NCBI GenBank assembly: GCA_947172415.1
Contig: OX359201.1
Span: 4,774,001-4,838,000 of the forward strand
DNA length: 64,000 nt
Origin: Chondrosia reniformis
Lineage: Eukaryota > Porifera > Demospongiae > Chondrillida > Chondrillidae
Reading direction: 5' to 3'
The position numbers and the translations under genes were made by a program. The notes beneath the pieces are model-generated. The model had not been told where the DNA came from, ran no database searches, and was given only the letters and a program-made list of their open reading frames with translations. Position 1 is the stretch's first letter; each line of letters opens with the position of its first letter. Below are positions 6,001 through 64,000 of the stretch, piece by piece.

Positions 6001-8610
6001 AAACTACCTACTTCCACTTAATACATTGGACATAACCTCAGGCGGTGAGTATTTAATGATGTATACTTTGATATACGTATGGATGTGACATTAAAGTTCA
6101 ATTCTCAACTTTGTAGGAAGTGAGTATTTGATGATGTATACTTTGATATATGGATGTGACATGACAATGCAATTCTCAACTTTGTTTCATAAACTGCCTA
6201 CTTCCACTCAATACATTGGACATAACCTCAGCAGGTGAGTATTTAATGATGTATACTTTGATATATGGATGTGACATTAAAGTTCAATTCTCAATTTTGT
6301 AGGAAGTGAGTATTTAATGATGTATACTTTGATATATGGATGTGACATGACAATGCAATTCTCAACTTTGTTTCATAAACTGCCTACTTCCACTCAATAC
6401 ATTGGACATAACCTCAGCGGGTGAGTATTTAATGATGTATACTTTGATATATGGATGTGACATGACAATGCAATTCTCAACTTTGTAGAAAGTGAGTATT
6501 TAATGATGTACGTATACTTTGATATATGGATGTGACATGACAATGCAATTCTCAACTTTGTTTCATAAACTGCCTACTTCCACTCAATACATTGGACATA
6601 ACCTCAGCGGGTGAGTATTTAATGATGTATACTTTGATATACGTATGGATGTGACATGACAATGCAATTCTCAACTTTGTAGAAAGTGAGTATTTAATGA
6701 TGTACGTTTACTTTGATATATGGATGTGACATGACAATGCAATTCTCAACTTTGTTCCATAAACTACCTACTTCCACTTAATACATTGGACATAACCTCA
6801 GGCGGTGAGTATTTAATGATGTATACTTTGATATACGTATGGATGTGACATTAAAGTTCAATTCTCAACTTTGTAGGAAGTGAGTATTTGATGATGTATA
6901 CTTTGATATATGGATGTGACATGACAATGCAATTCTCAACTTTGTTTCATAAACTGCCTACTTCCACTCAATACATTGGACATAACCTCAGCAGGTGAGT
7001 ATTTAATGATGTATACTTTGATATATGGATGTGACATTAAAGTTCAATTCTCAATTTTGTAGGAAGTGAGTATTTAATGATGTATACTTTGATATATGGA
7101 TGTGACATGACAATGCAATTCTCAACTTTGTTTCATAAACTGCCTACTTCCACTCAATACATTGGACATAACCTCAGCGGGTGAGTATTTAATGATGTAT
7201 ACTTTGATATATGGATGTGACATAACAATGCAATTCTCAACTTTGTAGAAAGTGAGTATTTAATGATGTACGTATACTTTGATATATGGATGTGACATGA
7301 CAATGCAATTCTCAACTTTGTTTCATAAACTGCCTACTTCCACTCAATACATTGGACATAACCTCAGCGGGTGAGTATTTAATGATGTATACTTTGATAT
7401 ACGTATGGATGTGACATGACAATGCAATTCTCAACTTTGTAGAGAGTGAGTATTTAATGATGTACGTTTACTTTGATATATGGATGTGACATGACAATGC
7501 AATTCTCAACTTTGTTCCATAAACTACCTACTTCCACTTAATACATTGGACATAACCTCAGGCGGTGAGTATTTAATGATGTATACTTTGATATATAGAT
7601 GTGACATTAAAGTTCAATTCTCAACTTTGTAGGAAGTGAGTATTTAATGATGTATACTTTGATATATGGATGTAACATGACAATGCAATTCTCAACTTTG
7701 TTTCATAAACTGCCTACTTCCACTCAATACATTGGACATAACCTCAGCGGGTGAGTATTTAATGATGTATACTTTGATATATGGATGTGACATGACAATG
7801 CAATTCTCAACTTTGTTTCATAAACTACCTACTTCCACTCAATACATTGGACATAACCTCAGGAGGTGAGTATTTAATGATGTATACTTTGATATATGGA
7901 TGTGACATGACAATGTAATTCTCAACTTTGTAGAAAGTGAGTATTTAATGATGTACGTATACTTTGATATATGGATGTGACATGACAATGCAATTCTCAA
8001 CTTTGTTTCATAAACTGCCTACTTCCACTCAATACATTGGACATAACCTCAGTTGGTGAGTATTTAATGATGTATGCTTTGATATATGGATGTGACATTA
8101 AAGTTCAATTCTCAATTTTGTAGGAAGTGAGTATTTAATGATGTATACTTTGATATATGGATGTGACATGACAATGCAATTCTCAACTTTGTTTCATAAA
8201 CTGCCTACTTCCACTCAATACATTGGACATAACCTCAGCCAGTGAGTATTTAATGATGTATGCTTTGATATATGGATGTGACATGACAATGCAATTCTCA
8301 ACTTTGTTTCATAAACTACCTACTTCCACTCAATACATTGGACGTAACCTCAGTTGGTGAGTATTTAATGATATATACTTTGATATATGGATGTGACATG
8401 ACAATGCAATTCTCAACTTTGTTTCATAAACTACCTACTCCCACTCAATACATTGGACTTAGCTATAGCCTCAGCCGGTAAGTAGTAAGGAAGTATGATA
8501 TATGTTATATCTTATGTTACTAATAATTTTCTATTTTCTAGTCCCTCCTCACCACAATGAGTTTGCCACGAACATCTTTGGATGTACAGAACAGACAATT
8601 AATTCTTTAA
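1..8610 (+). CDS. Gene 1: coiled-coil protein with single-codon microexon array (5' partial)
   Basis: The 5' end lies before the window; base 1 matches base 21701 in gene 3. Coiled-coil exons read by eye: 1-32, 91-140, 642-810, 873-934, 1144-1261, 1327-1400, 1454-1571, 1695-1768. Long exons run from phase 0 to phase 1 and short ones from phase 1 to phase 0. All are rich in Glu, Lys, Leu and Arg with no Pro, as expected for a coiled coil. The last ends in phase 0 (AAG) before GTATAA. It is followed by 66 triplets, each flanked by AG and GTRAGT (2138-2140 to 8475-8477), then a terminal exon at 8542-8610 after CTATTTTCTAG, which in phase 0 ends in TAA and encodes about 22 residues. The triplets translate without a stop as a Glu/Lys/Arg-rich helix ending Glu-Pro-Leu-Pro. 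Family role is inferred from gene 3: a death-fold scaffold. Exon structure of the coil is well supported; use of the triplets is a hypothesis. Confidence 0.7.
387..480 (+). repeat. Dispersed interspersed repeat copy
   Basis: A stretch starting at GGCCCAGTGGACAAAGG and passing through CCTCATCCAAAGCTCTCA to TATAGCC. Related copies lie at about 16073-16150, 22284-22372, 40905-41010 and 46016-46083 (+), and at about 12246-12330 and 26822-26985 (minus). The copies at 387, 22284 and 46016 sit in the same intron of the duplicated genes; the others are in unrelated contexts and orientations, which marks a mobile repeat. No coding capacity is seen. Confidence 0.6.
2001..2011 (+). other. Possible zero-length exon (ratchet-type splice junction) before array I
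   Basis: TTTTCCTAAATAG is followed at once by GTATGT, so an acceptor abuts a donor with no bases between. The same spot in gene 3 (23911-23921) reads AAATAG then GTACAT. In gene 4 a Tc1-like element sits exactly here, and the right flank still reads TAG then GTACGT (48593-48600). This resembles recursive-splice sites known from insects and vertebrates. It may be chance, because the flanking TA is simply the transposon target in gene 4. Confidence 0.35.
2079..8477 (+). repeat. Array I: 66 intron-like units separated by codon-sized triplets
   Basis: Tandem repeat with two unit types. Long units (about 115 bp) run from GTGAGTATTTAATGATG to GGACATAACCTCAG. Short units (about 72-76 bp) share the first half but end CTTTGTAG. 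Between each acceptor AG and the next GTGAGT lie exactly three bases. In order these include GAG, TTG, GTG, GAA, CGG, AAA, GCG, CAG, AGA, CCA and CCG; none is a stop. Short units carry only GAA, AAA or one AGA. Higher-order duplication is clear: about 2480-3900 recurs at +1552 bp, and a 760-bp block recurs at 5461, 6221 and 6981 (CAG positions), each spelling the eight residues EQERKRKA or a one-residue variant. The first and last donors are GTAAGT; the rest are GTGAGT. Unit length matches ordinary introns of the same gene (53-215 bp in gene 3). Confidence 0.9.
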
Positions 8611-19621: not shown

Positions 19622-19779
19622 GAGGGATTACATGGAAATGAAATAATACATATACATACACATACGTATGTACATATAATATATGCAAGCAGGAGTATAT
19701 AATATGTGGATACCACACAATTTATATTATGTAAAACAGTGCATGAGTATAGGAAAATATATATGATGACAGAGCAATA

Positions 19780-20278: not shown

Positions 20279-20404
20279 CAAGTAAATAATAATATTTACA
20301 AAAATAATGTTATACGTAAGTGGGAATGGCAGTGTTCAAAGTATTAGTGCACACTGCCATTCCTACTTCTAACATTATTTTTGTAAATGTTTTTTATTTA
20401 CTTG
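20279..20404. repeat. Foldback hairpin element
   Basis: The arms at 20279-20335 and 20351-20404 are complementary (outer CAAGTAAATAA with TTATTTACTTG, inner GGAATGGCAGTGT with ACACTGCCATTCC) around a 15-nt loop. It has the form of a MITE. Confidence 0.7.
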
Positions 20405-20582
20405 TGTTTATATTATGCATACACAGTATAGTTTGATATATTAAAATGTATTGCATTCAGTGGAATAATTTTATAACAAAATTGCCTTTTCAGTTGATAC
20501 AATTTTGATTGACTAAATATATATTTTAGGAGCTTTTAATGATAGTACGTAGCCATCATACATCAATTAGCATATATTCCCA

Positions 20583-20690
20583 TAGGTGAAATTGCGGTTA
20601 ATTATATCCTTAAAGGTGAAATTGCGGTTAATTATATCCTTAAAGGTGAAATTGCGGTTATATATACCAATTGCGGTTATATATCCATGC
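20583..20690. repeat. Tandem repeat of a 30-bp unit upstream of gene 3
   Basis: About three copies of a unit starting AGGTGAAATTGCGGTTA, ending just before the gene 3 5' region. A related stretch lies at 36758-36800. A regulatory role is not shown. Confidence 0.7.
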
Positions 20691-23700: not shown

Positions 23701-26019
23701 TTATTCCTGTTAAGCACTTAATAGCTTCTGGATGCCATGTTGCCATGTTGCCATGTTGCCATGTCAGATTATTTTAACAACTTTTTTATAAGAAAGTAAA
23801 ACTGAAATATTACATATAAAGAAAATGAGACATCTTTTAGTTACAACTGACAATAAGATTAACTTAAAAGTTTGATTAATAAAATTTCACTGACATTATT
23901 GTATTTTCCTAAATAGGTACATAATTATCAAAATAAATGTAAAGATCATGTATACATAATGTACATTCTCAACTTTGTTTCATAAACTGCCTACTTCCAC
24001 TCAATACATTGGACATAACCTCAGCGGGTGAGTATTTAATGATGTATGCTTTGATATATGGATGTGACATGACTATGCAATTCTCAACTTTGTTTCATAA
24101 ACTGCCTACTTCCACTCAATACATTGGACGTAACCTCAGTGGGTGAGTATTTAATGATGTATACTTTGATATATGGATGTGACATGACAAATGCAATTCT
24201 CAACTTTGTAGGAAGTGAGTATTTCATAATGTATACTTTGAAATATGGATGTGACATGACAATGCAATTCTCAACTTTGTTTCATAAACTGCCTACTTCT
24301 ACTCAATACATTGGACCTAACCTCAGCGGGTGAGTATTTAATAATGTATACTTTGATGGATGTGACATGCATATGACAATGCAATTCTCAACTTTGTTTC
24401 ATAAACTGCCTACTTCCACTCAATACATTGGACATAACCTCAGTTGGTGAGTATTTAATGATGTATACTTTGATATATGGATGTGACATGACAATGCAAT
24501 TCTCAACTTTGTTTCATAAACTGCCTACTTCTACTCAATGCATTGGACATAACCTCAGCGAGTGAGTATTTAATGATGTATGCTTTGATATATGGATGTG
24601 ACATGACAATGCAATTCTCAACTTTGTTTCATAAACTGCCTACTTCCACTCAATACAATGGACTTAACCTCAGCCGGTGAGTATTTAATGATGTATGCTT
24701 TAATATATGTATGACATGACAATGCAATTCTCAACTTTGTTTCATAAACTGCCTACTTCCACTCAATACATTGGACATAACCTCAGCGGGTGAGTATTTA
24801 ATGATGTATGCTTTGATATATGGATGTGACATGACAATGCAATTCTCAACTTTGTTTCATAAACTACCTACTTCCACTCAATACATTGGACATAGCCTCA
24901 GTATGTGAGTATTTAATGATGTATACTTTGATATATGGATGTGACATGACAATGCAATTCTCAACTTTGTTTCATAAATGCCTACTTCCACTCAATACAA
25001 TGGACTTAACCTCAGCCGGTGAGTATTTAATGATGTATACGTTAATATATGGATGTGACATGACAATGCAATTCTCAACTTTGTTTCATAAACTGCCTAC
25101 TTCCACTCAGTTGGTGAGTATTTAATGATGTATGCTTTGATGTATGGATGTGACATGACAATGCAATTCTCAACTTTGTTTCATAAACTGCCTACTTCCA
25201 CTCAATACATTGGACATAACCTCAGACGGTGAGTATTTAATGACGTATACTTTGATATATGGATGTGACATTGCAATGCAATTCTCAACTTTGTTTCATA
25301 AACTGCCTACTTCCACTCAATACATTGGACATAACCTCAGACGGTGAGTATTTAATGATGTATACTTTGATATATGGATGTGACATGACAATGCAATTCT
25401 CAACTTTGTTTCATAAACTGCCTACTTCCACTCAATACATTGGACATAACCTCAGACGGTGAGTATTTAATGATGTATACTTTGATATATGGATGTGTCA
25501 TGACAATGCAATTCTCAACTTTGTTTCATAAACTGCCTACTTCCACTCAATACATTGGACTTAACCTCAGCCAGTGAGTATTTAATGATGTATACTTTGA
25601 TATGTGGTTGTGACATGACAATGCAATTCTCAACTTTGTTTCATAAACTGCCTACTTCCACTCAATACATTGGACATAACCTCAGCCGGTGAGTATTTAA
25701 TGATGTATACTTTGATATGTGGATGTGACATGACAATGCAATTCTCAACTTTGTTTCATAAACTGCCTACTTCCACTCAATACATTGGACATAACCTCAG
25801 CCGGTGAGTATTTAATGATGTATACTTTGATATGTGGATGTGACATGACAATGCAATTCTCAACTTTGTTTCATAAACTGCCTACTTCCACTCAATACAT
25901 TGGACTTAACCTCAGGTGGTGAGTAGTAAGGAAGTATAATATATGTTATGTTTTTGTTACTAAGATAATTGTCTATTTAGAGTAAACAAAGAGAAGCTGG
26001 TCCCTCCTCACCACAATGA
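20756..26019 (+). CDS. Gene 3: CARD-like / coiled-coil protein with single-codon microexons (complete)
   Basis: Exon 1 (20756-21065) starts MDRSKEK; an in-frame ATG at 20687 is less likely because gene 2 aligns from 20756. It carries the death-fold block (VILPYLQEHRLVPLP to YKNIAEDLHAG). Exon 2 (21146-21429) is a Ser/Thr/Gln-rich linker. Coiled-coil exons: 21585-21732, 21791-21840, 22533-22701, 22764-22825, 23041-23146, 23227-23300, 23354-23471, 23597-23670. All junctions keep frame and the last ends in phase 0. Eighteen triplets follow (24025-24027 to 25916-25918), reading RWERLRPRYPLTTTPPPV. The terminal exon 25981-26019 reads SKQREAGPSSPQ then stop. The Pro/Thr-rich tail contrasts with the helical arrays of genes 1 and 4. 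It is likely a cytoplasmic scaffold that assembles through the death fold and coil (inferred). This is the best complete model in the window. Confidence 0.72.
22095..22283. mobile_element. Small insertion in a gene 3 intron
   Basis: About 190 bp present here but absent at the matching position in gene 1 (after GGCCCAGTG, about 395) and gene 4. CCAGTG and CACAGTG at the edges may be a target duplication. No inverted ends or coding motif are seen. Confidence 0.5.
23967..25918 (+). repeat. Array III: 18 intron-like units with codon-sized triplets
   Basis: Mostly 113-117-bp long units and one short unit (triplet GAA at 24212). In order the triplets are CGG, TGG, GAA, CGG, TTG, CGA, CCG, CGG, TAT, CCG, TTG, ACG, ACG, ACG, CCA, CCG, CCG, GTG. 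No stop occurs. The triplet varies much more from unit to unit than the surrounding bases. One unit (ending 25110) has lost about 20 bp before the acceptor yet keeps CTCAG and the 3-nt spacing. Confidence 0.9.
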
Positions 26020-36389: not shown

Positions 36390-36760
36390 ACATCGCCATT
36401 GCTGGATAGCTGTGCTGTCATCCCATTATGACTCCGCACAGCATTGTGGAGTGAATTGGCAAAGCTGGGTGTCCCTGACAATGTCATCAACCTTGTGAAG
36501 TCCTTTAATAATATGCCTTATTCAAGTCTACAAAGGTGATGAACTGCTTTGACCTGTGCTCTACTAACTTCTCCACCAGCTGCCGAAGGGTAAAGGTCAT
36601 GTCCGAGCAGCCTCGACCCTTGCGGAACTCACACTTGTACTCTGGTAGCTCAGTCTCTGCTAGTCTCTCTTGGAGGATCCTGGCCATCACCGCAACCTCC
36701 AGCAGGGAGATCCCTCTCCAGTTGTCACACCCATTAGCACATATGTGTACATGATGTCGA
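36390..36760. mobile_element. Rearranged non-LTR retrotransposon RT fragment
   Basis: On the minus strand 36505-36690 reads ILQERLAETELPEYKCEFRKG and FVDLNKAYY, a LINE reverse transcriptase motif-A region. On the + strand 36420-36500 reads RTALWSELAKLGVPDNVINL, which is the part that follows it in the same kind of protein. The two pieces are head to head, with a junction near 36505-36510. It is truncated on both sides. Confidence 0.7.
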
Positions 36761-36796
36761 ATTGCGGTTATATGTATATACCCATATAGGTGAAAT

Positions 36797-47600: not shown

Positions 47601-50600
47601 GGGTTTTTGAGAGAGCAACTGAGGAAAGTTGCAAGTGCGGAAATTAGCGTATACATATGTACGTATATATATGCGTACATGGTATATAATGACGATTACA
47701 ATTCGTAGTCTTGACTTTCCCCAAATCACGCTAACAGTTTTTCCAGGAGCTACAGTTCCTTCTTTGATACTGTTTCTTGTTACATACGATCTTTTGCCAG
47801 CTCCCCTTCCATCGATCCATTCTACCATAATTTTGCTTGCCATCTCGCTCCTAATCGCTGCTTCTAATCGCAATGATTCATAACGTCCAAATGCATGTAC
47901 AAATATTTATAGGATATTACAGGATACTCATATTATTTAATTCGCCAATCAAAACTCTACGATAAAACACTGAGGTCCGCCGAAGGAATTTGTGAAAATC
48001 CTCAGAATATAGGTGTTAATTTGTGAATCTATACGAATTCTGAGGATTTTCACAGATTCTTTCAGCGGACCTCAGTGTTTTATCGTAGAGTTTTGATTGG
48101 CGATTTACGTACGTACATAAATAATGAATAAAAATGATAATGAATATATAATACGTATGAGTTTCCAGTAATATACTATGCCATTAACTAAGTATCAAAG
48201 AGAAAGAATTGTGTCTCTCCATCTCCAAAGTAAAGGGTCAGCATCCAATATTTTAAAAATTATAGCAATTGAAAGAATCTATACAACAAAACAAACTGTT
48301 TTGAATACTCTAATTATTTTATTGTTCTATATTATTAGATTCTGACGATACTTATACGTAGGTAAAGATTGAAATGCTCGACATACGTACGTATCTTCTT
48401 CGTAGATTGCATGGCTTCCCTATCGACATCCTACGTACGTACGTATTGTTCGTTTGTTTACAAACATCGCTGACGATACCCGCAGATGCTGATATGGCAA
48501 ACCGCAGGTGGCTGTACAGCAGTACACAGAAAATTTGCGGATTCCCGTACAAACCCTTGCGGAAATCGCCAAGTTTCTTTTGACCTGTACCGTAGGTACG
48601 TAATTATCAAAATAAATGTATGTAAAGACCATGTAAAATGTACATATACATAATGTACATTCTCAACTTTGTTTCATAAACTACCTGTCTCCACTCAATA
48701 CATTGGACATAACCTCAGGAGGTGAGTATTTAATGATGTATGCTTTAATACATGGATGCAGCATTAAAGTTCATTTCTTAACTTTGTAGGAAGTGAGTAT
48801 TTAATGATGTATACTTTGATATATATGGATGTGACATGACAATGCAATTCTCAACTTTGTTTCATAAACTGCCTACTTCCACTCAATATATTGGACTTAG
48901 CCTCAGAGGGTGAGTATTTAATGATGTATGCTTTAATACATGGATGCAGCATTAAAGTTCATTTCTCAACTTTGTAGGAAGTGAGTATTTAATGATGTAT
49001 ACTTTGATATATGGATGTGACATGACAATGCAATTCTTAACTTTGTTTCATAAACTGCCTACTTCCACTAAATACATTGGACATAACCTCAGTCGGTGAG
49101 TATTTAATGATGTATACTTTGATATATGTATGTGACATGACAATGCAATTCTCAACTTTGTTTCATAAACTGCCTACTTCCACTCAATACATTGGACTTA
49201 ACCTCAGACGGTGAGTATTTAATGATGTATACTTTGATATATGGATGTGACATGACAATGCAATTCTCAACTTTGTTTCATAAACTGCCTACTTCCACTC
49301 AATACATTGGACCTAACCTCAGCTGGTGAGTATTTAATGATGTATACTTTGATATATGTATGTGACATGACAATGCAATTCTCAACTTTGTTTCATAAAC
49401 TGCCTACTTCCACTAAATACATTGGACATAACCTCAGTCGGTGAGTATTTAATGATGTATACTTTGATATATGTATGTGACATGACAATGCAATTCTCAA
49501 CTTTGTTTCATATACTGCCTACTTCCACTCAATACATTGGACTTAACCTCAGATGGTGAGTATTTAATGATGTATACTTTGATATATGGATGTGACATGA
49601 CAATGCAATTTTCAACTTTGTTTCATAAACTGCCTACTTCCACTCAATACGTTGGACATAACCTCAGAAAGTGAGTATTTAATGATGTATACTTTGATAT
49701 ATGGATGTGAAATGACAATGCAATTCTCAACTTTGTTTCATAAACTGCCTACTTCCACTCAATGCGTTGGACATAACCTCAGCGGGTGAGTATTTAATGA
49801 TGTACATATACTTTGGTATATGGATGCAGTTTTATAATTTAATTCTCAACATTGTAGGAAGTGAGTATATAATGATGTGTACTTTGATATATGGATGTGA
49901 CATGACAATGCAATTTTCAACTTTGTTTTATAAACTGCCTACTTCCACTTAATACATTGGACATAACCTCAGATGGTGAGTATTTAATGATGTATACTTT
50001 GATATATGTATGGATGTGACATTAAAATTTAATTCTTAACTTTGTAGGAAGTGAGTATTTAATGATGTATACTTTGATATATGGATGTGACATAATAATG
50101 CAATTTTCAACTTTGTTTCATAAACTGCCTACTTCCACTCAATACATTGGACATAACCTCAGCTGGTGAGTATTTAATGATGTATACTTTGATATGTGGA
50201 TGTGACGTGACAATGCAATTCTCAACTTTGTTTCATAAACTGCCTACTTCCACTCAATACGTTGGACATAACCTCAGAAAGTGAGTATTTAATGATGTAT
50301 ACTTTGATATGTGGATGTGATGTGACAATGCAATTCTCAACTTTGTTTCATAAACTGCCTACTTCCACTCAATACATTGGACATAACCTCAGGAGGTGAG
50401 TATTTAATGATGTACATATACTTTAGTATATGGATGCAGCATTAAAATTCATTTCTCAACTTCGTAGGAAGTGAGTATATACTTTGATATATGGATGTGA
50501 CATGACAATGCAATTCTCAACTTTGTTTCATAAACTGTCTACTTCCACTCAATGCGTTGGACATAACCTCAGAGAGTGAGTATTTAATAATGTATGCTTT

Positions 50601-53600
50601 AATATATGTTTGGATGTGACATTAAAATTTAATTCTTAACTTTGTAGGATGTGAGTATTTAATGATGTATACTTTGATATATGGATGTGACATGACAATG
50701 CAATTCTCAACTTTGTTTCATAAACTGCCTACTTCCACTCAATACATTGGACTTAACCTCAGATGGTGAGTATTTAATGATGTATACTTTTATATATGGA
50801 TGTGAAATGACAATGCAATTCTCAACTTTGTTTCATATACTGCCTGCTTCCACTCAATACATTGGACTTAACCTCAGATGGTGAGTATTTAATGATGTAT
50901 ACTTTGATATATGGATGTGACATGACAATGCAATTTTCAACTTTGTTTCATAAACTGCCTACTTTCACTCAATACGTTGGACATAACCTCAGAAAGTGAG
51001 TATTTAATGATGTATACTTTTATATATGGATGTGAAATGACAATGCAATTCTCAACTTTGTTTCATAAACTGCCTACTTCCACTCAATACGTTGGACATA
51101 ACCTCAGCGGGTGAGTATTTAATGATGTACATATACTTTGGTATATGGATGCAGTTTTATAATTTAATTCTCAACTTTGTAGGAAGTGAGTATATAATGA
51201 TGTATACTTTGATATATGGATGTGACATGACAATGCAATTTTCAACTTTGTTTTATAAACTGCCTACTTCTACTTAAAACATTGGACATAACCTCAGCGG
51301 GTGAGTATTTAATGATGTATACTTTGATATGTGGATGTGATGTGACAATGCAATTTTCAACTTTGTTTCATAAACTGCCTACTTCCACTCAATACATTGG
51401 ACATAACCTCAGGAGGTGAGTATTTAATGATGTTTACTTTAATATATGTATGGATATGACATTAAAATTTAATTCTTAACTTTGTAGGAAGTGAGTATTT
51501 AATGATGTATACTTTGATATATGGATGTGACATGACAATGCAATTTTCAACTTTGTTTCATAAACTGCCTACTTCCACTCAATACATTGGACATAACCTC
51601 AGATGGTGAGTATTTAATGATGTATACTTTGATATATGGATGTGACATGACAATGCAATTTTCAACTTTGTTTCATAAACTGCCTACTTCCACTCAATAC
51701 ATTGGACATAACCTCAGGAGGTGAGTATTTAATGATGTTTACTTTAATATATTTATGGATGTGACATTAAAATTTAATTCTTAACTTTGTAGGAAGTGAG
51801 TATTTAATGATGTATACTTTGATATATGGATGTGACATGACAATGCAATTTTCAACTTTGTTTCATAAACTGCCTACTTCCACTCAATACATTGGACATA
51901 ACCTCAGATGGTGAGTATTTAATGATGTATACTTTGATATGTGGATGTGACGTGACAATGCAATTCTCAACTTTGTTTCATAAACTGCCTACTTCCACTC
52001 AATACGTTGGACATAACCTCAGAAAGTGAGTATTTAATGATGTATACTTTGATATGTGGATGTGATGTGACAATGCAATTCTCAACTTTGTTTCATAAAC
52101 TGCCTACTTCCACTCAATACATTGGACATAACCTCAGCGGGTGAGTATTTAATGATGTTTAGTTTAATATACTTATGTATGGATGTGACATTAAAATTTA
52201 ATTCTTAACTTTGTAGGATGTGAGTATTTAATGATGTATACTTTGATATATGGATGTGACATGACAATGCAATTTTCAACTTTGTTTCATAAACTGCCTA
52301 CTTCCACTCAATACATTGGACTTAACCTCAGATGGTGAGTATTTAATGATGTATACTTTTATATATGGATGTGAAATGACAATGCAATTCTCAACTTTGT
52401 TTCATAAACTGCCTACTTCCACTCAATACATTGGACATAACCTCAGATGGTGAGTATTTAATGATGTATACTTTTATATATGGATGTGAAATGACAATGC
52501 AATTCTCAACTTTGTTTCATAAACTGCCTACTTCCACTCAATACATTGGACTTAACCTCAGCGGGTGAGTATTTAATGATGTACATATACTTTAGTATAT
52601 GGATGCAGCATTAAAATTCATTTCTCAACTTCGTAGGAAGTGAGTATATACTTTGATATATGGATGTGACATGACAATGCAATTCTCAACTTTGTTTCAT
52701 AAACTGTCTACTTCCACTCAATGCGTTTGACATAACCTCAGAGAGTGAGTATTTAATAATGTATGCTTTAATATATGTATGGATGTGACATTAAAATTTA
52801 ATTCTTAACTTTGTAGGATGTGAGTATTTAATGATGTATACTTTGATATATGGATGTGACATGACAATGCAATTCTCAACTTTGTTTCATAAACTGCCTA
52901 CTTCCACTCAATACATTGGACTTAACCTCAGATGGTGAGTATTTAATGATGTATACTTTTATATATGGATGTGAAATGACAATGCAATTCTCAACTTTGT
53001 TTCATAAACTGCCTACTTCCACTCAATACATTGGACTTAACCTCAGATGGTGAGTATTTAATGATGTATACTTTGATATATGGATGTGACATGACAATGC
53101 AATTTTCAACTTTGTTTCATAAACTGCCTACTTCCACTCAATACGTTGGACATAACCTCAGAAAGTGAGTATTTAATGATGTATTCTTTTATATATGGAT
53201 GTGACATGACAATGCAATTTTCAACTTTGTTTCATAAACTGCCTACTTCCACTCAATACATTGGACATAACCTCAGTCGGTGAGTATTTAATGATATATA
53301 CTTTGATATATGGATGTGACATGACAATGCAATTCTCAACTTTGTTTCATAAACTGTCTACTTCCACTCAATACATTGGACTTAACCTCAGATGGTGAGT
53401 ATTTAATGATGTATACTTTTATATATGGATGTGAAATGACAATGCAATTCTCAACTTTGTTTCATAAACTGCCTACTTCCACTCAATACATTGGACTTAA
53501 CCTCAGATGGTGAGTATTTAATGATGTATACTTTGATATGTGGATGTGACATGACAATGCAATTCTCAACTTTGTTTCATAAACTGCCTACTTCCACTCA

Positions 53601-56600
53601 ATACATTGGACATAACCTCAGCTGGTGAGTATTTAATGATGTATACTTTGATATATGGATGTGACATGACAATGCAATTCTCAACTTTGTTTCATAAACT
53701 GTGTGCTTCCACTCAATGCGTTGGACATAACCTCAGAGAGTGAGTATTTAATAATGTATGCTTTAATATATGTATGGATGTGACATTAAAATTTAATTCT
53801 TAACTTTGTAGGATGTGAGTATTTAATGATGTATACTTTGATATATGGATGTAACATGACAATGCAATTTTCAACTTTGTTTCATAAACTGCCTACTTCC
53901 ACTCAATACATTGGACATAACCTCAGAAAGTGAGTATTTAATGATGTATACTTTGATATATGTATGTGACATGACAATGCAATTTTCAACTTTGTTTCAT
54001 AAACTACCTACTTCCACTCAATACATTGGACATAACCTCAGCTGGTGAGTATTTAATGATGTATACTTTGATATGTGGATGTGACGTGACAATGCAATTC
54101 TCAACTTTGTTTCATAAACTGCCTACTTCCACTCAATACGTTGGACATAACCTCAGAAAGTGAGTATTTAATGATGTATACTTTGATATGTGGATGTGAT
54201 GTAACAATGCAATTCTCAACTTTGTTTCATAAACTGCCTACTTCCACTCAATACATTGGACATAACCTCAGGAGGTGAGTATTTAATGAAGTTTAGTTTA
54301 ATATATGTATGGATGTGACATTAAAATTTAATTCTTAACTTTGTAGGATGTGAGTATTTAATGATGTATACTTTGATATATGGATGTGACATGACAATGC
54401 AATTTTCAACTTTGTTTCATAAACTGCCTACTTCCACTCAATACATTGGACTTAACCTCAGATGGTGAGTATTTAATGATGTATACTTTTATATATGGAT
54501 GTGAAATGACAATGCAATTCTCAACTTTGTTTCATAAACTGCCTACTTCCACTCAATACGTTGGACATAACCTCAGATGGTGAGTATTTAATGATGTATA
54601 CTTTTATATATGGATGTGAAATGACAATGCAATTCTCAACTTTGTTTCATAAACTGCCTACTTCCACTCAATACGTTGGACATAACCTCAGATGGTGAGT
54701 ATTTAATGATGTATACTTTTATATATGGATGTGAAATGACAATGCAATTCTCAACTTTGTTTCATAAACTGCCTACTCCCACTCAATACATTGGACTTAA
54801 CCTCAGCGGGTGAGTATTTAATGATGTACATATACTTTAGTATATGGATGCAGCATTAAAATTCATTTCTCAACTTCGTAGGAAGTGAGTATATACTTTG
54901 ATATATGGATGTGACATGACAATGCAATTCTCAACTTTGTTTCATAAACTGTCTACTTCCACTCAATTCGTTGGACATAACCTCAGAGAGTGAGTATTTA
55001 ATAATGTATGCTTTAATATATGTATGGATGTGACATTAAAATTTAATTCTTAACTTTGTAGGATGTGAGTATTTAATGATGTATACTTTGATATATGGAT
55101 GTGACATGACAATGCAATTTTCAACTTTGTTTCATAAACTTCCTACTTCCACTCAATACGTTGGACATAACCTCAGAAAGTGAGTATTTAATGATGTATA
55201 CTTTGATATATGGATGTAACATGACAATGCAATATTCAACTTTGTTTCATAAACTGCCTACTTCCACTCAATACATTGGACATAACCTCAGAAAGTGAGT
55301 ATTTAATGATGTATACTTTGATATATGGATGTGAAATGACAATGCAATTCTCAACTTTGTTTCATAAACTGCCTACTTCCACTCAATACGTTGGACATAA
55401 CCTCAGCGGGTGAGTATTTAATGATGTACATATACTTTGGTATATGGATGCAGTTTTATAATTTAATTCTCAACTTTGTAGGAAGTGAGTATATAATGAT
55501 ATATACTTTGATATATGGATGTGACATGACAATGCAATTTTCAACTTTGTTTTATAAACTGCCTACTTCCACTTAATACATTGGACATAACCTCAGCGGG
55601 TGAGTATTTAATGATGTATACTTTGATATGTGGATGTGATGTGACAATGCAATTTTCAACTTTGTTTCATAAACTGCCTACTTCCACTCAATATATTGGA
55701 CTTAACCTCAGCGGGTGAGTATTTAATGATGTACATATACTTTAGTATATGGATGCAGCATTAAAATTCATTTCTCAACTTCGTAGGAAGTGAGTATATA
55801 CTTTGATATATGGATGTGACATGACAATGCAATTTTTAACTTTGTTTCATAAACTGTCTACTTCCACTCAATTCGTTGGACATAACCTCAGATGGTGAGT
55901 ATTTAATGATGTATACTTTTATATATGGATGTGACATGACAATGCAATTCTCAACTTTGTTTCATATACTGCGTACTTCCACTCAATACATTGGACTTAA
56001 CCTCAGATGGTGAGTATTTAATGATGTATACTTTGATATATGGATGTAACATGACAATGCAATATTCAACTTTGTTTCATAAACTGCCTACTTCCACTCA
56101 ATACGTTGGACATAACCTCAGAAAGTGAGTATTTAATGATGTATACTTTGATATATGGATGTGAAATGACAATGCAATTCTCAACTTTGTTTCATAAACT
56201 GCCTACTTCCACTCAATACGTTGGACATAACCTCAGCGGGTGAGTATTTAATGATGTACATATACTTTGGTATATGGATGCAGTTTTATAATTTAATTCT
56301 CAACTTTGTAGGAAGTGAGTATATAATGATGTATACTTTGATATATGGATGTGACATGACAATGCAATTTTCAACTTTGTTTTATAAACTGCCTACTTCC
56401 ACTTAATACATTGGACATAACGTCAGCGGGTGAGTATTTAATGATGTATACTTTGATATATGGATGTGACATGACAATGCAATTTTCAACTTTGTTTTAT
56501 AAACTGCCTACTTCCACTTAATACATTGGACATAACCTCAGATGGTGAGTATTTAATGATGTATACTTTTATATATGGATGTGACATGACAATGCAATTC

Positions 56601-59600
56601 TCAACTTTGTTTCATATACTGCGTACTTCCACTCAATACATTGGACTTAACCTCAGATGGTGAGTATTTAATGATGTTTACTTTAATATATGTATGGATG
56701 TGACATTAAAATTTAATTCTTAACTTTGTAGGAAGTGAGTATTTAATGATGTATACTTTGATATATGGATGTGACATGACAATGCAATTTTTAACTTTGT
56801 TTCATAAACTGCCTACTTCCACTCAATACATTGGACATAACCTCAGATGGTGAGTATTTAATGATGTATACTTTTATATATGGATGTGACATGACAATGC
56901 AATTTTCAACTTTGTTTCATAAACTGCCTACTTCCACTCAATACGTTGGACATAACCTCAGAAAGTGAGTATTTAATGATGTATACTTTGATATGTGGAT
57001 GTGATGTGACAATGCAATTCTCAACTTTGTTTCATAAACTGCCTACTTCCACTCAATACATTGGACATAACCTCAGGAGGTGAGTATTTAATGATGTACA
57101 TATACTTTAGTATATGGATGCAGCATTCAAATTCATTTCTCAACTTCGTAGGAAGTGAGTATATACTTTGATATATGGATGTGACATGACAATGCAATTC
57201 TCAACTTTGTTTCATAAACTGTCTACTTCCACTCAATGCGTTGGACATAACCTCAGAGAGTGAGTATTTAATAATGTATGCTTTAATATATGTATGGATG
57301 TGACATTAAAATTTAATTCTTAACTTTGTAGGATGTGAGTATTTAATGATGTATACTTTGATATGTGGATGTGACATGACAATGCAATTCTCAACTTTGT
57401 TTCATAAACTGCCTACTTCCACTCAATACATTGGACTTAACCTCAGATGGTGAGTATTTAATGATGTATACTTTTATATATGGATGTGAAATGACAATGC
57501 AATTCTCAACTTTGTTTCATATGCTGCCTGCTTCCACTCAATACATTGGACTTAACCTCAGATGGTGAGTATTTAATGATGTATACTTTGATATATGGAT
57601 GTGACATGACAATGCAATTTTCAACTTTGTTTCATAAACTGCCTACTTCCACTCAATACGTTGGACATAACCTCAGAAAGTGAGTATTTAATGATGGATA
57701 CTTTGATATATGGATGTGAAATGACAATGCAATTTTCAACTTTGTTTCATAAACTGCCTACTTCCACTCAATACGTTGGACATAACCTCAGCGGGTGAGT
57801 ATTTAATGATGTACATATACTTTGGTATATGGATGCAGTTTTATAATTTAATTCTCAACTTTGTAGGAAGTGAGTATATAATGATGTATACTTTGATATA
57901 TGGATGTGACATGACAATGCAATTTTCAACTTTGTTTTATAAACTGCCTACTTCCACTTAATACATTGGACATAATCTCAGCGGGTGAGTATTTAATGAT
58001 TTATACTTTGATATGTGGATGTGATGTGACAATGCAATTTTCAACTTTGTTTCATAAACTGCCTACTTCCACTCAATACATTGGACATAACCTCAGGAGG
58101 TGAGTATTTAATGATGTTTACTTTAATATATGTATGGATGTGACATTAAAATTTAATTCTTAACTTTGTAGGAAGTGAGTATTTAATGATGTATACTTTG
58201 ATATATGGATGTGACATGACAATGCAATTTTCAACTTTGTTTCATAAACTTCCTACTTCCACTCAATACGTTGGACATAACCTCAGAAAGTGAGTATTTA
58301 ATGATGTATACTTTGATATATGGATGTGAAATGACAATGCAATTCTCAACTTTGTTTCATAAACTGCCTACTTCCACTCAATACGTTGGACATAACCTCA
58401 GCGGGTGAGTATTTAATGATGTACATATACTTTGGTATATGGATGCAGTTTTATAATTTAATTCTCAACTTTGTAGGAAGTGAGTATATAATGATGTATA
58501 CTTTGATATATGGATGTGACATGACAATGCAATTTTCAACTTTGTTTTATAAACTGCCTACTTCCACTTAATACATTGGACATAACGTCAGCGGGTGAGT
58601 ATTTAATGATGTATACTTTGATATATGGATGTGACATGACAATGCAATTTTCAACTTTGTTTTATAAACTGCCTACTTCCACTTAATACATTGGACATAA
58701 CCTCAGATGGTGAGTATTTAATGATGTATACTTTTATATATGGATGTGACATGACAATGCAATTCTCAACTTTGTTTCATATACTGCGTACTTCCACTCA
58801 ATACATTGGACTTAACCTCAGATGGTGAGTATTTAATGATGTTTACTTTAATATATGTATGGATGTGACATTAAAATTTAATTCTTAACTTTGTAGGAAG
58901 TGAGTATTTAATGATGTATACTTTGATATATGGATGTGACATGACAATGCAATTTTTAACTTTGTTTCATAAACTGCCTACTTCCACTCAATACATTGGA
59001 CATAACCTCAGATGGTGAGTATTTAATGATGTATACTTTTATATATGGATGTGACATGACAATGCAATTTTCAACTTTGTTTCATAAACTGCCTACTTCC
59101 ACTCAATACGTTGGACATAACCTCAGAAAGTGAGTATTTAATGATGTATACTTTGATATGTGGATGTGATGTGACAATGCAATTCTCAACTTTGTTTCAT
59201 AAACTGCCTACTTCCACTCAATACATTGGACATAACCTCAGGAGGTGAGTATTTAATGATGTACATATACTTTAGTATACTGATGCAGCATTAAAATTCA
59301 TTTCTCAACTTCGTAGGAAGTGAGTATATACTTTGATATATGGATGTGACATGACAATGCAATTCTCAACTTTGTTTCATAAACTGTCTACTTCCACTCA
59401 ATGCGTTGGACATAACCTCAGAGAGTGAGTATTTAATAATGTATGCTTTAATATATGTATGGATGTGACATTAAAATTTAATTCTTAACTTTGTAGGAAG
59501 TGAGTATTTAATGATGTATACTTTGATATGTGGATGTGACATGACAATGCAATTCTCAACTTTGTTTCATAAACTGCCTACTTCCACTCAATACATTGGA

Positions 59601-62600
59601 CTTAACCTCAGATGGTGAGTATTTAATGATGTATACTTTTATATATGGATGTGAAATGACAATGCAATTCTCAACTTTGTTTCATATACTGCCTGCTTCC
59701 ACTCAATACATTGGACTTAACCTCAGATGGTGAGTATTTAATGATGTATACTTTGATATATGGATGTGACATGACAATGCAATTTTCAACTTTGTTTCAT
59801 AAACTGCCTACTTCCACTCATTACGTTGGACATAACCTCAGAAAGTGAGTATTTAATGATGGATACTTTGATATATGGATGTGAAATGACAATGCAATTT
59901 TCAACTTTGTTTCATAAACTGCCTACTTCCACTCAATACGTTGGACATAACCTCAGCGGGTGAGTATTTAATGATGTACATATACTTTGGTATATGGATG
60001 CAGTTTTATAATTTAATTCTCAACTTTGTAGGAAGTGAGTAAATAATGATGTATACTTTGATATATGGATGTGACATGACAATGCAATTTTCAACTTTGT
60101 TTTATAAACTGCCTACTTCCACTTAATACATTGGACATAATCTCAGCGGGTGAGTATTTAATGATTTATACTTTGATATGTGGATGTGATGTGACAATAC
60201 AATTTTCAACTTTGTTTCATAAACTGCCTACTTCCACTCAATACATTGGACATAACCTCAGGAGGTGAGTATTTAATGATGTTTACTTTAATATATGTAT
60301 GGATGTGACATTAAAATTTAATTCTTAACTTTGTAGGAAGTGAGTATTTAATGATGTATACTTTGATATATGTATGTGACATGACAATGCAATTTTCAAC
60401 TTTGTTTCATAAACTTCCTACTTCCACTCAATACATTGGACATAACCTCAGATGGTGAGTATTTAATGATGTATACTTTGATATATGGATGTGACATGAC
60501 AATGCAATTTTCAACTTTGTTTCATAAACTGCCTACTTCCACTCAATACATTGGACATAACCTCAGGAGGTGAGTATTTAATGATGTTTACTTTAATATA
60601 TGTATGGATGTGACATTAAAATTTAATTCTTAACTTTGTAGGATGTGAGTATTTAATGATGTATACTTTGATATATGGATGTGACATGACAATGCAATTC
60701 TCAACTTTGTTTCATAAACTGCCTACTTCCACTCAATACATTGGACTTAACCTCAGATGGTGAGTATTTATTGATGTATACTTTGATATGTGGATGTGAC
60801 GTGACAATGCAATTTTCAACTTTGTTTTATAAACTGCCTACTTCCACTTAATACATTGGACATAACCTCAGCTGGTGAGTATTTAATGATGTATACTTTG
60901 ATATGTGGATGTGACGTGACAATGCAATTCTCAACTTTGTTTCATAAACTGCCTACTTCCACTCAATACGTTGGACATAACCTCAGAAAGTGAGTATTTA
61001 ATGATGTATACTTTGATATGTGGATGTGATGTGACAATGCAATTCTCAACTTTGTTTCATAAACTGCCTACTTCCACTCAATACATTGGACATAACCTCA
61101 GGAGGTGAGTATTTAATGATGTACATATACTTTAGTATATGGATGCAGCATTAAAATTCATTTCTCAACTTCGTAGGAAGTGAGTATATACTTTGATATA
61201 TGGATGTGACATTACAATGCAATTCTCAACTTTGTTTCATAAACTGTCTACTTCCACTCAATGCGTTGGACATAACCTCAGAGAGTGAGTATTTAATAAT
61301 GTATGCTTTAATATATGTATGGATGTGACATTAAAATTTAATTCTTAACTTTGTAGGATGTGAGTATTTAATGATGTATACTTTGATATATGGATGTGAC
61401 ATGACAATGCAATTCTCAACCTTGTTTCATAAACTGCCTACTTCCACTCAATACATTGGACTTAACCTCAGCTGGTGAGTATTTAATGATGTATACTTTT
61501 ATATATGGATGTGAAATGACAATGCAATTCTCAACTTTGTTTCATAAACTGCCTACTTCCACTCAATACATTGGACTTAACCTCAGATGGTGAGTATTTA
61601 ATGATGTATACTTTGATATATGGATGTGACATGACAATGCAATTTTCAACTTTGTTTCATAAACTGCCTACTTCCACTCAATACGTTGGACATAACCTCA
61701 GGAGGTGAGTATTTAATGATGTTTACTTTAATATATGTATGGATGTGACATTAAAATTTAATTCTTAACTTTGTAGGAAGTGAGTATTTAATGATGTATA
61801 CTTTGATATATGGATGTGACATGATAATACAATTTTCAACTTTGTTTCATAAACTGCCTACTTCCATTCAATACATTGGACATAACCTCAGCTGGTGAGT
61901 ATTTAATGATGTATACTTTGATATGTGGATGTGACGTGACAATGCAATTCTCAACTTTGTTTCATAAACTGCCTACTTCCACTCAATACGTTGGACATAA
62001 CCTCAGAAAGTGAGTATTTAATGATGTATACTTTGATATGTGGATGTGATGTGACAATGCAATTCTCAACTTTGTTTCATAAACTGCCTACTTCCACTCA
62101 ATACATTGGACATAACCTCAGGAGGTGAGTATTTAATGATGTACATATACTTTAGTATATGGATGCAGCATTAAAATTCATTTCTCAACTTCGTAGAAAG
62201 TGAGTATATACTTTGATATATGGATGTGACATGACAATGCAATTCTCAACTTTGTTTCATAAACTGTCTACTTCCACTCAATGCGTTGGACATAACCTCA
62301 GAGAGTGAGTATTTAATAATGTATGCTTTAATATATGTATGGATGTGACATTAAAATTTAATTCTTAACTTTGTAGGATGTGAGTATTTAATGATGTATA
62401 CTTTGATATATGGATGTGACATGACAATGCAATTCTCAACCTTGTTTCATAAACTGCCTACTTCCACTCAATACATTGGACTTAACCTCAGCTGGTGAGT
62501 ATTTAATGATGTATACTTTTATATATGGATGTGAAATGACAATGCAATTCTCAACTTTGTTTCATAAACTGCCTACTTCCACTCAATACATTGGACTTAA

Positions 62601-64000
62601 CCTCAGATGGTGAGTATTTAATGATGTATACTTTGATATATGGATGTGACATGACAATGCAATTTTCAACTTTGTTTCATAAACTGCCTACTTCCATTCA
62701 ATACATTGGACATAACCTCAGCTGGTGAGTATTTAATGATGTATACTTTGATATGTGGATGTGACGTGACAATGCAATTCTCAACTTTGTTTCATAAACT
62801 GCCTACTTCCACTCAATACGTTGGACATAACCTCAGAAAGTGAGTATTTAATGATGTATACTTTGATATGTGGATGTGATGTGACAATGCAATTCTCAAC
62901 TTTGTTTCATAAACTGCCTACTTCCACTCAATACATTGGACATAACCTCAGGAGGTGAGTATTTAATGATGTACATATACTTTAGTATATGGATGCAGCA
63001 TTAAAATTCATTTCTCAACTTCGTAGAAAGTGAGTATATACTTTGATATATGGATGTGACATGACAATGCAATTCTCAACTTTGTTTCATAAACTGTCTA
63101 CTTCCACTCAATGCGTTGGACATAACCTCAGAGAGTGAGTATTTAATAATGTATGCTTTAATATATGTATGGATGTGACATTAAAATTTAATTCTTAACT
63201 TTGTAGGATGTGAGTATTTAATGATGTATACTTTGATATATGGATGTGACATGACAATGCAATTCTCAACTTTGTTTCATAAACTGCCTACTTCCACTCA
63301 ATACATTGGACTTAACCTCAGATGGTGAGTATTTAATGATGTATACTTTTATATATGGATGTGAAATGACAATGCAATTCTCAACTTTGTTTCATAAACT
63401 GCCTGCTTCCACTCAATACATTGGACTTAACCTCAGATGGTGAGTATTTAATGATGTATACTTTGATATATGGATGTGACATGACAATGCAATTTTCAAC
63501 TTTGTTTCATAAACTGCCTACTTCCACTCAATACGTTGGACATAACCTCAGAAAGTGAGTATTTAATGATGTATTCTTTGATATATGGATGTGAAATGAC
63601 AATGCAATTCTCAACTTTGTTTCATAAACTGCCTACTTCCACTCAATACGTTGGACATAACCTCAGCGGGTGAGTATTTAATGATGTACATATACTTTGG
63701 TATATGGATGCAGTTTTATAATTTAATTCTCAACTTTGTAGGAAGTGAGTATATAATGATGTATACTTTGATATATGGATGTGACATGACAATGCAATTT
63801 TCAACTTTGTTTTATAAACTGCCTACTTCCACTTAATACATTGGACATAATCTCAGCGGGTGAGTATTTAATGATTTATACTTTGATATGTGGATGTGAT
63901 GTGACAATGCAATTTTCAACTTTGTTTCATAAACTGCCTACTTCCACTCAATACATTGGACATAACCTCAGGAGGTGAGTATTTAATGATGTTTACTTTA
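41695..64000 (+). CDS. Gene 4: chimeric N-terminus + coiled coil + very long single-codon array (3' partial)
   Basis: Exon 1 (41695-41998) starts MEEKIVDFLNEPDFNQ and has a helical C-terminal half (NYLLTLLVQDPSLRKLRALSEAL), possibly death-fold. Exon 42066-42943 includes VLPGSSIITFYIPKQY, a GS-I-TF-P motif seen in invertebrate death-fold receptors (recollection). Exons 43013-43051, 43611-43704 and 43928-43986 continue in phase and end in phase 0. The next recognisable exons are coiled coil, shared with genes 1 and 3: 46184-46352, 46419-46480, 46696-46813, 46882-46955, 47011-47128, 47252-47325, entering in phase 0. About 148 triplets follow from 48719 to the window end with no stop. Joining the N-terminal exons to the coil across 43987-46183 is inferred from phase, strand and proximity. 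The alternative is two genes, with the coil part a truncated duplicate. Confidence 0.6.
44125..44226. repeat. Loop and inner arm of a foldback element
   Basis: ACTTGCACACAAGGGACAT to TAACCCTGTTGAT corresponds to the loop region and inner right arm of the 30683-31597 family. The rest of the right arm resumes at 45466 after the Penelope-like insertion. Confidence 0.75.
44309..44350 (-). ncRNA. Hammerhead ribozyme motif (left arm)
   Basis: Mirror of the motif at 45376-45417: on the minus strand CTGATGA (44339-44345) and GAAAC (44317-44321) with flanking TTCCA/TGGAA pairing and a GGTCC/GGACC stem. Hammerheads are known in the terminal repeats of Penelope-like elements. Confidence 0.7.
44551..44895 (-). 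CDS. GIY-YIG endonuclease domain of Penelope-like element (left arm)
   Basis: About 110 residues. It carries GVVYRIPCGNCPKVYIGQTS, then a basic TLKHRLTEHKRAL segment and AEHAMEEDHTIKW, and ends near YNPLIHLYTPS. These are the GIY-YIG core, the Arg-bearing helix and the His/Glu region of the Penelope endonuclease. The C-P-C type Cys residues near the N-terminus (CGNC) fit the family's zinc-binding linker. It is a fragment of a fossil element. Confidence 0.8.
   Translation of the reverse strand: MFAQRTGVVYRIPCGNCPKVYIGQTSRTLKHRLTEHKRALRLGEAAQSAVAEHAMEEDHTIKWEDAEVVDRNHRYRQRCTLEAWHIRTERHKMNRDEGPLPGVYNPLIHLYTPS
44894..45175 (+). CDS. GIY-YIG endonuclease domain of Penelope-like element (right arm, shorter)
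   Basis: The same protein from IGQTSRTLKHRL to the same C-terminal end and stop, on the opposite strand. It lacks the first GIY strand that the left arm has. It is part of the same fossil inverted pair. Confidence 0.8.
   Translation: MGQTSRTLKHRLTEHKRALRLGEAAQSAVAEHAMEEDHTIKWEDAEVVDRNHRYRQRCTLEAWHIRTERHKMNRDEGPLPGVYNPLIHLYTPS
45376..45417 (+). ncRNA. Hammerhead ribozyme motif (right arm)
   Basis: TTCCA, CTGATGA (45381-45387), stem II GGTCC/GGACC with a TGGATT loop, GAAAC (45405-45409), a short CGTTT segment, and TGGAA pairing with the first TTCCA. Core bases match the hammerhead consensus. Stem III is minimal, as in Penelope-type hammerheads. Activity is not known. Confidence 0.75.
45466..45963. 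repeat. Right long inverted arm of the 6.3-kb segment
   Basis: Complementary to 39657-40122; ends GAGATTCTACTG next to TA. The two ends look like Tc1-type termini with unusually long inverted repeats. Confidence 0.75.
47943..48112. repeat. Nested foldback MITE
   Basis: Arms of about 68 nt, starting CGCCAATCAAAACTC and ending GAGTTTTGATTGGCG-like, around a 25-nt loop. It lies within the Tc1-type element. Confidence 0.85.
48178..48345 (+). pseudogene. Tc1-type transposase N-terminal remnant
   Basis: 55 residues from MPLTKYQRERIVSLHLQ to a stop. The KYQRERIVSLHL and TTKQTV segments match the paired-type helix-turn-helix that binds Tc1 inverted repeats. There is no DDE domain. Confidence 0.7.
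48659..64000 (+). repeat. Array IV: about 148 intron-like units with codon-sized triplets, continuing past the window
   Basis: Long units (about 115 bp), short units (about 72-76 bp ending TTTGTAG) and a 105-bp type. I read 148 triplets between AG and GTGAGT from GAG at 48719-48721; the only types are GAA, GAG, GAT, AAA, AGA, AGG, CGG, ATG, CTG, TCG and ACG. They encode only Glu, Asp, Lys, Arg, Met, Leu, three Ser and one Thr. For example 60872 to 62379 gives LKEERDLMEELKEKRD. Higher-order repeats exist: 56221 and 58386 start blocks of 2165 bp holding 21 triplets. No acceptor or donor was seen broken. The array runs off the window, so the number is a minimum. Confidence 0.9.

Follow-up and report, generated by a model that had tools for sequence, protein, structure and literature searches.

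Satellite repeats predicted to act as serial one-codon exons in a small CARD-like/coiled-coil gene family of the sponge Chondrosia reniformis

The window analyzed here is a stretch of 64,000 nucleotides from the demosponge Chondrosia reniformis (GenBank assembly GCA_947172415.1, contig OX359201.1, positions 4,774,001 to 4,838,000; GC content, 34.8%), to which all coordinates refer. It contains four genes of a small family, here called A to D. A satellite is common to three places, in genes A (2078-8504), B (23965-25925), and C (48659-64000), and gene D carries a decayed array. From the 15-kb satellite of gene C, the original prediction was that the tandem repeat works as a coding device, every unit contributing one residue to a protein. 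Exon models were built by hand from GT/AG sites and paralogue comparison, and the features are as follows.

48719..63974, plus strand: array A3 of gene C, made up of 148 phase-0 exons of one codon each, extending past the window edge
46184-46352, 46419-46480, 46696-46813, 46882-46955, 47011-47128, and 47252-47325, plus strand: coiled-coil exons of gene C, hand-built, with AG and GT at each junction
2138..8477, plus strand: array A1 of gene A, 66 one-codon exons reading ELVERKRKAAEQEKLEREAERKRKAAEREKLEREQERKRKAEQERKRKAEQERKRRAEREKLEPLP
91-140, 642-810, 873-934, 1144-1261, 1327-1400, 1454-1571, and 1695-1768, plus strand: coiled-coil exons of gene A, hand-built
8542..8610, plus strand: terminal exon of gene A, in phase, reading SLLTTMSLPRTSLDVQNRQLIL and a stop codon
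24025..25918, plus strand: array A2 of gene B, 18 one-codon exons reading RWERLRPRYPLTTTPPPV
20756-21065 and 21146-21429, plus strand: exons 1 (CARD_2-like) and 2 (linker) of gene B, hand-built
21594-21732, 21791-21840, 22533-22701, 22764-22825, 23041-23146, 23227-23300, 23354-23471, and 23597-23670, plus strand: coiled-coil exons of gene B, hand-built
25981..26019, plus strand: terminal exon of gene B, in phase, reading SKQREAGPSSPQ and a stop codon
18183..18780, plus strand: decayed array of gene D, six recognized one-codon exons reading EKLKRE
16601-16910 (CARD_2-like), 17004-17299, 17422-17596, and 17657-17718, plus strand: exons of gene D, hand-built, ending in phase 0

Every one of the 148 GTGAGT sites in 48659-64000 is preceded by AG and exactly 3 nt, and the coil exon upstream of the array (47252-47325) ends in phase 0 in the hand-built model, both as originally described. 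Read from the first codon (48719-48721) to the last inside the window (63972-63974), the triplets spell EERESTLSMKREMELKEERDMMKRERE... up to the window edge and include LKEERDLMEELKEKRD, the stretch quoted in the original prediction. None of the 148 is a stop codon, and 144 encode the six residues named there, i.e., Glu (41), Met (33), Arg (29), Lys (21), Asp (11), and Leu (9). The other four are Ser (three) and Thr (one), and Pro, Gly, and aromatic residues are absent. The predicted unit length of 115 bp holds for 98 of the 147 codon-to-codon spacings, the others being 75 bp (36 spacings), 105 bp (nine), 71 bp (two), 79 bp (one), and 117 bp (one), and the array is built of two unit types rather than one. 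Long units (mostly 115 bp) have an intron of mostly 112 nt with the acceptor mostly taacctcag, and short units (mostly 75 bp) have an intron of mostly 68 or 72 nt with the acceptor mostly actttgtag. Units were identified through the motif AG-NNN-GTRAGT itself. Because the largest codon spacing is 117 nt in A3 and 121 nt in any array, a broken unit cannot hide between those picked by the motif.

Lys in the long units of A3 is encoded by AAA in 19 of 19 cases and never by AAG, and Glu is always GAG. An AAG triplet would make a second acceptor-like AG abutting the donor, as GAG and CAG likewise do. Within the first intron of the gene C array lies an insertion resembling a miniature inverted-repeat transposable element (47510-48594), with perfect inverted ends of 32 bp (47510-47541 and 48563-48594); none was seen in the matching introns of genes A and B.

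The 5' end of gene A lies to the left of the window, and the 5' part of gene C was not found within it. Gene B has a complete hand-built frame of 492 residues, running from ATG through ten ordinary exons and 18 single codons to SKQREAGPSSPQ and a stop codon, with weak acceptors (..gtaag) at exons 21594 and 23354. The coil exon directly before the array is alike in the three paralogues, ending in ..MKDDKMKSLLEEVERLSTEKQPK in gene B and in close variants in genes A and C. Junction phases in the gene models alternate between 1 and 0; in every case it is a phase-0 junction that precedes the array, and the upstream exon ends in phase 0 in all four genes. The array peptides predicted after exons 47252-47325, 1695-1768, and 23597-23670 are ELVERKRKAAEQEKLERE..., EERESTLSMKRE..., and RWERLRPRYPLTTTPPPV, respectively, and in genes A and B the exon after the array continues in phase to a stop codon. 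Among the donors of the ten ordinary gene B exons, gtgagt occurs once, the others being, e.g., gtaacc, gtagga, gtacac, and gtataa. Single codons account for 18 of 492 residues in gene B (complete), for 66 of the 309 visible residues of gene A, and for 148 of 353 in gene C, which is incomplete at both ends. The ratio of nonsynonymous to synonymous substitution rates (dN/dS) for coil exons among genes A, B, and C is 0.49, 0.76, and 0.92, and the introns differ by 4 to 6%, so that the three genes are recent duplicates. Their unit numbers are nonetheless 66 (A), 18 (B), and at least 148 (C).

Exon 1, scanned alone, matches Pfam CARD_2 (PF16739) in gene B (20.7 bits; E value, 0.00042; aligned over positions 17 to 101 of 103) and gene D (18.8 bits; E value, 0.0017; positions 18 to 101), in both cases below the gathering cutoff of 28.2 bits; CARD_2 is missing at an E value of 1 from a Pfam scan of the whole gene B protein. 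Pfam scans of the spliced B and A proteins, two array peptides, and one neighboring open reading frame (ORF) gave only matches below cutoff. An AlphaFold model of the CARD-like exon, made from a two-sequence alignment, had a mean predicted local distance difference test (pLDDT) score of 48.6, too poor for judging a six-helix death fold. A PDB sequence search with this exon returned just two chance-level hits (E values, 0.87 and 1.5). Used as a protein query against virus, bacterial, and archaeal contig collections, it gave 14 and 71 pattern matches, none confirmed, an absence that means little in those collections. The host genes are likely to encode an adaptor that is CARD-like at its N terminus and carries a long coil and then a charged tail.

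Splice-site integrity is complete in the arrays of genes A, B, and C. AG, 3 nt, and GTRAGT are found in 232 of 232 units, the donor being GTGAGT in 230 and GTAAGT in two, the first and last of the 66 units of A1 (GTGAGT in the other 64). All splice sites are intact and all triplets are free of insertions and deletions, while intron lengths take 12 values between 68 and 118 nt. In long units, the nucleotide diversity (pi) at triplet positions 1 and 2 is 0.60 and 0.74 in A1, 0.68 and 0.69 in A2, and 0.58 and 0.69 in A3 (0.39 at position 3 in A3), against intron means of 0.025, 0.050, and 0.053, respectively, and zero at the acceptor AG. In each of the three arrays, positions 1 and 2 of the codon are the top two of 125 columns and are 11 to 30 times as variable as the intron. 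Pairs of A3 units whose two flanking introns (∼200 bp) are ∼4 edits apart differ at 0.55 of three codon bases, and those ∼8 edits apart differ at 1.29, so that codons change at roughly ten times the intron rate. This would mean either that codons are driven to differ or that introns are homogenized by conversion. Where the flanks of A3 pairs are 1 or 2 edits apart, 22 of 150 pairs differ in the codon, and all these differences are E/K, L/M, or D/E.

Long introns are also poor in AG, which is expected if the acceptor is used. No AG beyond those of donor and acceptor occurs in 157 of 161 long introns, and among 133 aligned 112-nt introns, AG-creating substitutions were seen at two of 43 possible changes, compared with 59 of 248 others (Fisher's exact test, pooled P = 0.0017; stratified by transition and transversion, P = 0.010; transversions, P = 0.006). 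Because splice sites are unbroken, triplets are free of insertions and deletions, the codons of long units are hypervariable, and AG is depleted, the arrays of this one genome are more readily read as real one-codon exons under selection than as a decorative satellite.

The array of gene D provides what is regarded as the strongest single argument, in that the repeat has largely dissolved and the putative one-codon exons are retained. Between 18181 and 18786, AG-NNN-GTNAGT sites found by inspection and pattern scan number six, five with GTRAGT and one with GTTAGT. The one-codon exons start at 18183, 18332, 18455, 18555, 18671, and 18778 (GAG, AAA, TTG, AAA, AGG, and GAA, in order), and the codons are in phase with a coil exon ending in ..KLEKLVKE. 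The five introns between them (97 to 146 nt) are 0.59 to 0.69 identical to the consensus of the long satellite unit. Since shuffled sequences reach 0.527 (standard deviation, 0.027), most of these introns are recognizable but old relatives; identity in the stretch after the last codon is 0.55. A repeat finder did not report the satellite repeat at this site. In 17720-20600, AGN3GTRAGT occurs five times, compared with a Markov mean of 0.063, and five or more occurrences were reached in 0 of 20,000 simulations. Other spacers (0 to 2 and 4 to 12 nt) gave two matches in total in 17700-20600 (spacers of 0 and 1), both overlapping 3-nt sites, and outside the arrays the motif with a 3-nt spacer occurs elsewhere only once, at 10898. 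The array was noticed before being tested, and any unit now lacking the motif would go uncounted. A possible in-phase end of gene D (18781-19195, ..LQLKSEARCLCIQQPTLFHACVPF and a stop codon) is a candidate with a weak splice site.

The predicted tails of genes A and C are rich in residues compatible with a helix. E, K, R, M, L, A, Q, and D make up 63 of 66 residues in A1 and 144 of 148 in A3. In count-weighted permutations of the genetic code, helix propensity on the scale of Pace and Scholtz was high in A1 (P = 0.004), A3 (P = 0.018), and D (P = 0.022). Pro and Gly together number two in A1 (10.6 in position shuffles among units; P = 0.0002) and zero in A3 (5.0; P = 0.002), both P values being inflated by unit copying. 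Opposite-charge pairs at i,i+4 number 24 in A1, compared with 15.5 in simple shuffles (P = 0.003). The order signals of A3 lie off helical spacings (opposite charges at i,i+1, P = 0.004, and at i,i+6, P = 0.013; a 5-residue period, P = 0.005; simple shuffles). A PDB sequence search with the A1 and A3 peptides gave zero hits at an E value of 0.01. The original proposal that the array continues the upstream coiled coil gains partial support, in that the composition is helix-forming but both long arrays lack a 3.5-residue periodicity and A2 is not helical in composition. Heptad periodicity was rejected as evidence.

Together, these observations suggest that the satellite is a coding device, its units providing serial one-codon, phase-0 exons in the 3' portion of the genes of a small family; a probability of roughly 0.8 is assigned to this reading. 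The corresponding claim of the original prediction thus gains strong support at the DNA level from the paralogue arrays, gene D, the unbroken sites beside hypervariable codons, and the exclusion of AG.

Several observations weigh against this interpretation. Correct splicing of 148 successive 3-nt exons would be an extraordinary demand. Many units are copies of one another, so that P values calculated at the unit level overstate the evidence and the independent events are far fewer than 232. The absence of stop codons, although confirmed, was rejected as evidence because 23% (A3) and 27% (A1) of position shuffles among units, i.e., about one-quarter for each long array, are equally stop-free. 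In short units, the triplet does not lead in variability, its positions ranking 2, 7, and 12 of 81 columns in A1 and 26, 37, and 16 of 85 in A3, and AG occurs inside 16 of 28 short introns in A1 and 21 of 39 in A3. The depletion of AG in long introns is not significant for transitions alone (P = 0.28), and one more AG-creating variant lies in the last 9 nt, beyond the tested range. Of A3 pairs at 3 to 5 edits, 111 of 313 differ in the codon, with K/M the commonest change (42 pairs), and conservation is weaker in A1, in which 18 of 78 pairs at 1 or 2 edits differ, mostly by E/R (12 pairs). Constraint on the coil exons of genes A, B, and C appears only moderate, and the units of gene D were recognized by the motif and after looking.

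The peptide-level signals carry similar reservations. Composition in A2 is not helical (code permutation, P = 0.66), and when each residue type is counted just once the helix signal is weaker (A1, P = 0.024; A3, P = 0.08; D, P = 0.008; A1, A3, and D together, P = 0.067). The i,i+4 excess in A1 is not specific, because in block shuffles of homologous units (i,i+4, P = 0.013 and 0.034) i,i+5 and i,i+6 are raised too (P = 0.009 to 0.070). A3 has no i,i+4 excess of opposite charges (33 versus 34.0; P = 0.64), and a heptad period of hydrophobic residues is absent from A1 (P = 0.81; blocks, 0.54 to 0.56) and A3 (P = 0.10; blocks, 0.24 to 0.33).

An improbable alternative is that the satellite is noncoding and lies in one large intron that is removed at once, the AG-NNN-GTGAGT motif being incidental. 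Tandem copies would have the motif in common by descent, stop-free triplets are not improbable alone, the 18 triplets of gene B look random in composition, and the triplet of short units is not unusually variable. It is harder for this explanation to accommodate a long-unit triplet that is the most variable stretch of an otherwise 95 to 97% identical sequence with invariant AG and GT, the absence of triplet insertions and deletions in 232 units despite 12 intron lengths, the depletion of AG-creating variants in long introns, and a motif that outlives the repeat in gene D. Even less credence is given to a ladder of recursive splicing, in which the sites would be ratchet points dividing a long intron, with most triplets lost from the mRNA. 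The acceptor-donor neighborhood does resemble that of the Drosophila ratchet points described in PMC8605326, and a CAG or GAG triplet puts a second AG right next to GTGAGT, giving a zero-nucleotide choice at those units. Ratchet points abut, however, whereas acceptor and donor are exactly 3 nt apart in all 232 units. Also against this explanation are the helix-like composition in A1, A3, and D and the conservative codon changes between nearly identical A3 units.

Just as unlikely is an origin of the introner type, in which the units are spliced but arose by repeated insertion of a mobile intron between codons of an ordinary helix exon rather than by duplication of an intron with its codon. Near-identical introns are the mark of introners and are present here, and a spacing of single codons would fit a 3-bp target-site preference. 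However, the best match to the unit outside the three arrays in the 64 kb is 44 bp long and lies within the decayed array of gene D (E value, 0.018; the next, 0.22), and the exact unit motifs occur outside the arrays only once in the window, again in gene D. No near-identical introns were seen in unrelated genes within the window. The higher-order periods indicate blocks of units copied together and thus point to tandem duplication.

If the satellite is indeed a coding device, each gene would consist of a CARD_2-like N terminus, a linker, a coiled coil, and then satellite units, each unit providing one short GT-AG intron (68 to 118 nt) and one exon of exactly one codon. Since a 3-nt exon cannot hold U1 and U2AF/U2 simultaneously, we infer that the spliceosome takes out the introns singly by intron definition. 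Each ligation would set a new codon directly before the next GTGAGT, the donor staying on the growing upstream exon, in a process like a recursive-splicing ratchet that leaves one codon per step and whose logic would be applied at least 148 times in gene C. Within this scheme, the sequence in which introns leave and the extent to which units are skipped are likewise inferred. Were the intron after a unit retained, translation would meet a stop as the 4th, 5th, or 10th codon, which holds for 229 of 229 introns, so that only complete splicing or skipping of whole units would yield the protein, and skipping of any units would presumably leave the frame intact. The product would be a CARD-like/coiled-coil protein whose C-terminal tail has as many residues as units are included, i.e., a charged, probably helical tail in genes A (66 residues) and C (at least 148) and a nonhelical one of 18 in gene B. 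Copying of unit blocks in the DNA would alter the protein by whole residues.

More tentatively, the arrays might serve as a codon-by-codon diversifier in a CARD-containing, possibly immune or scaffold, protein family. Unequal exchange and frame-neutral skipping in RNA would then set tail length and sequence at single-residue resolution, with codons driven to outpace introns. This proposal is regarded as doubtful; if true, tail lengths would vary between individuals and cells. Confirmation of the one-codon exons by transcripts would establish genes with 66 and at least 148 of them in succession, near the lower limit of definition by the spliceosome. The copy number of a satellite would be read out as protein length, providing a route from satellite DNA to protein sequence, and recognition of serial 3-nt exons would become testable with respect to intron definition, removal order, and error rate. 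Gene predictors and read aligners that impose a minimum exon length would overlook genes of this kind.

Isolated microexons of one codon or less have precedents. Exons of 3 nt are reported for Ncam and Drosophila troponin T (PMC8042270) and for Drosophila homothorax (PMC7392893), two are found in one fungal gene (PMC5639578), and plant APC11 and VPS55 likewise have microexons in this size range (3 or 1 nt). The 3-nt exons in the available text of these reports are isolated, whereas in the arrays described here 18, 66, and at least 148 would follow one another within satellite DNA. The microexon structure, bounded by AG and GT and in phase with its neighbors, is seen in all 232 units and in the six of gene D. 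The 1-nt VPS55 microexon is described with a strong GTRAGT donor (PMC8831610), as found at all array donors. For a 1-nt exon, it was proposed that the flanking introns may be removed successively by intron definition and recursive splicing (PMC4674806), which matches the scheme suggested for the arrays. Ratchet points, as described in PMC8605326, consist of an acceptor followed immediately by a donor and lead to stepwise intron removal; the two sites are juxtaposed there, i.e., the exon has zero nucleotides, and are separated by exactly one codon in 232 of 232 units here.

Arrays of small exons are also known. The coding regions of schistosome micro-exon genes (MEGs) consist mostly of very small symmetrical exons, alternative use of which gives similar proteins (PMC4350168). 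The arrays reported here resemble them as series of very small symmetrical exons, all of one codon and in phase 0, and differ in that neither a satellite nor an exact one-codon size is described for MEGs in the text available for PMC4350168. The leucine-rich repeat (LRR) genes of Tetrahymena have tandem exons of equal size (90 bp), uniform phase, and characteristic intron length that spread by duplication of the repeat unit (PMC6564038). Those exons are in phase 2 and encode LRRs, whereas the exons here are of 3 nt, in phase 0, and predicted to encode a charged helix or tail; Pfam found no LRR in the array genes, and exons of the Tetrahymena type are not present.

MEG exons are longer than those of the arrays, and MEG proteins are secreted. 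Charged single alpha-helix (SAH) segments are rich in E, K, and R and are normally encoded by ordinary exons. The A1 peptide, which is rich in E, K, R, A, and L and has i,i+4 opposite charges above simple shuffles, may resemble SAH segments, and the Met-rich A3 peptide without the i,i+4 pattern differs from them. Among the matches listed in the open-licence literature searched, isolated 3-nt exons and other exon arrays were found and serial one-codon exons were not. The exact unit patterns had no matches in the virus, bacterial, and archaeal contig collections, an absence that means little there.

Among other features of the window, Rfam and tRNA scans gave nothing. Genes A and B are each followed, in inverse orientation, by a conserved ORF (..DLYPDEYDDQVDHPM..; 9546-9878 and 27498-27830, minus strand), with a fragment of it downstream of gene D (19533-19721, minus strand), and the duplicated block apparently takes it in; the one copy scanned had no Pfam match above cutoff. 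Retroelement remnants are present on the minus strand at 38381-38821, 36508-36801, and 44554-44898. They include reverse transcriptase fragments (Pfam RVT_1; E values, 4.7e-16 and, just under the cutoff, 1.1e-6) and a GIY-YIG fragment just under its Pfam cutoff, as in Penelope-type elements. An inverted duplication (44554-45175) surrounds the GIY-YIG fragment, with ORFs repeated on opposite strands (∼44554-44898 and 44870-45172).

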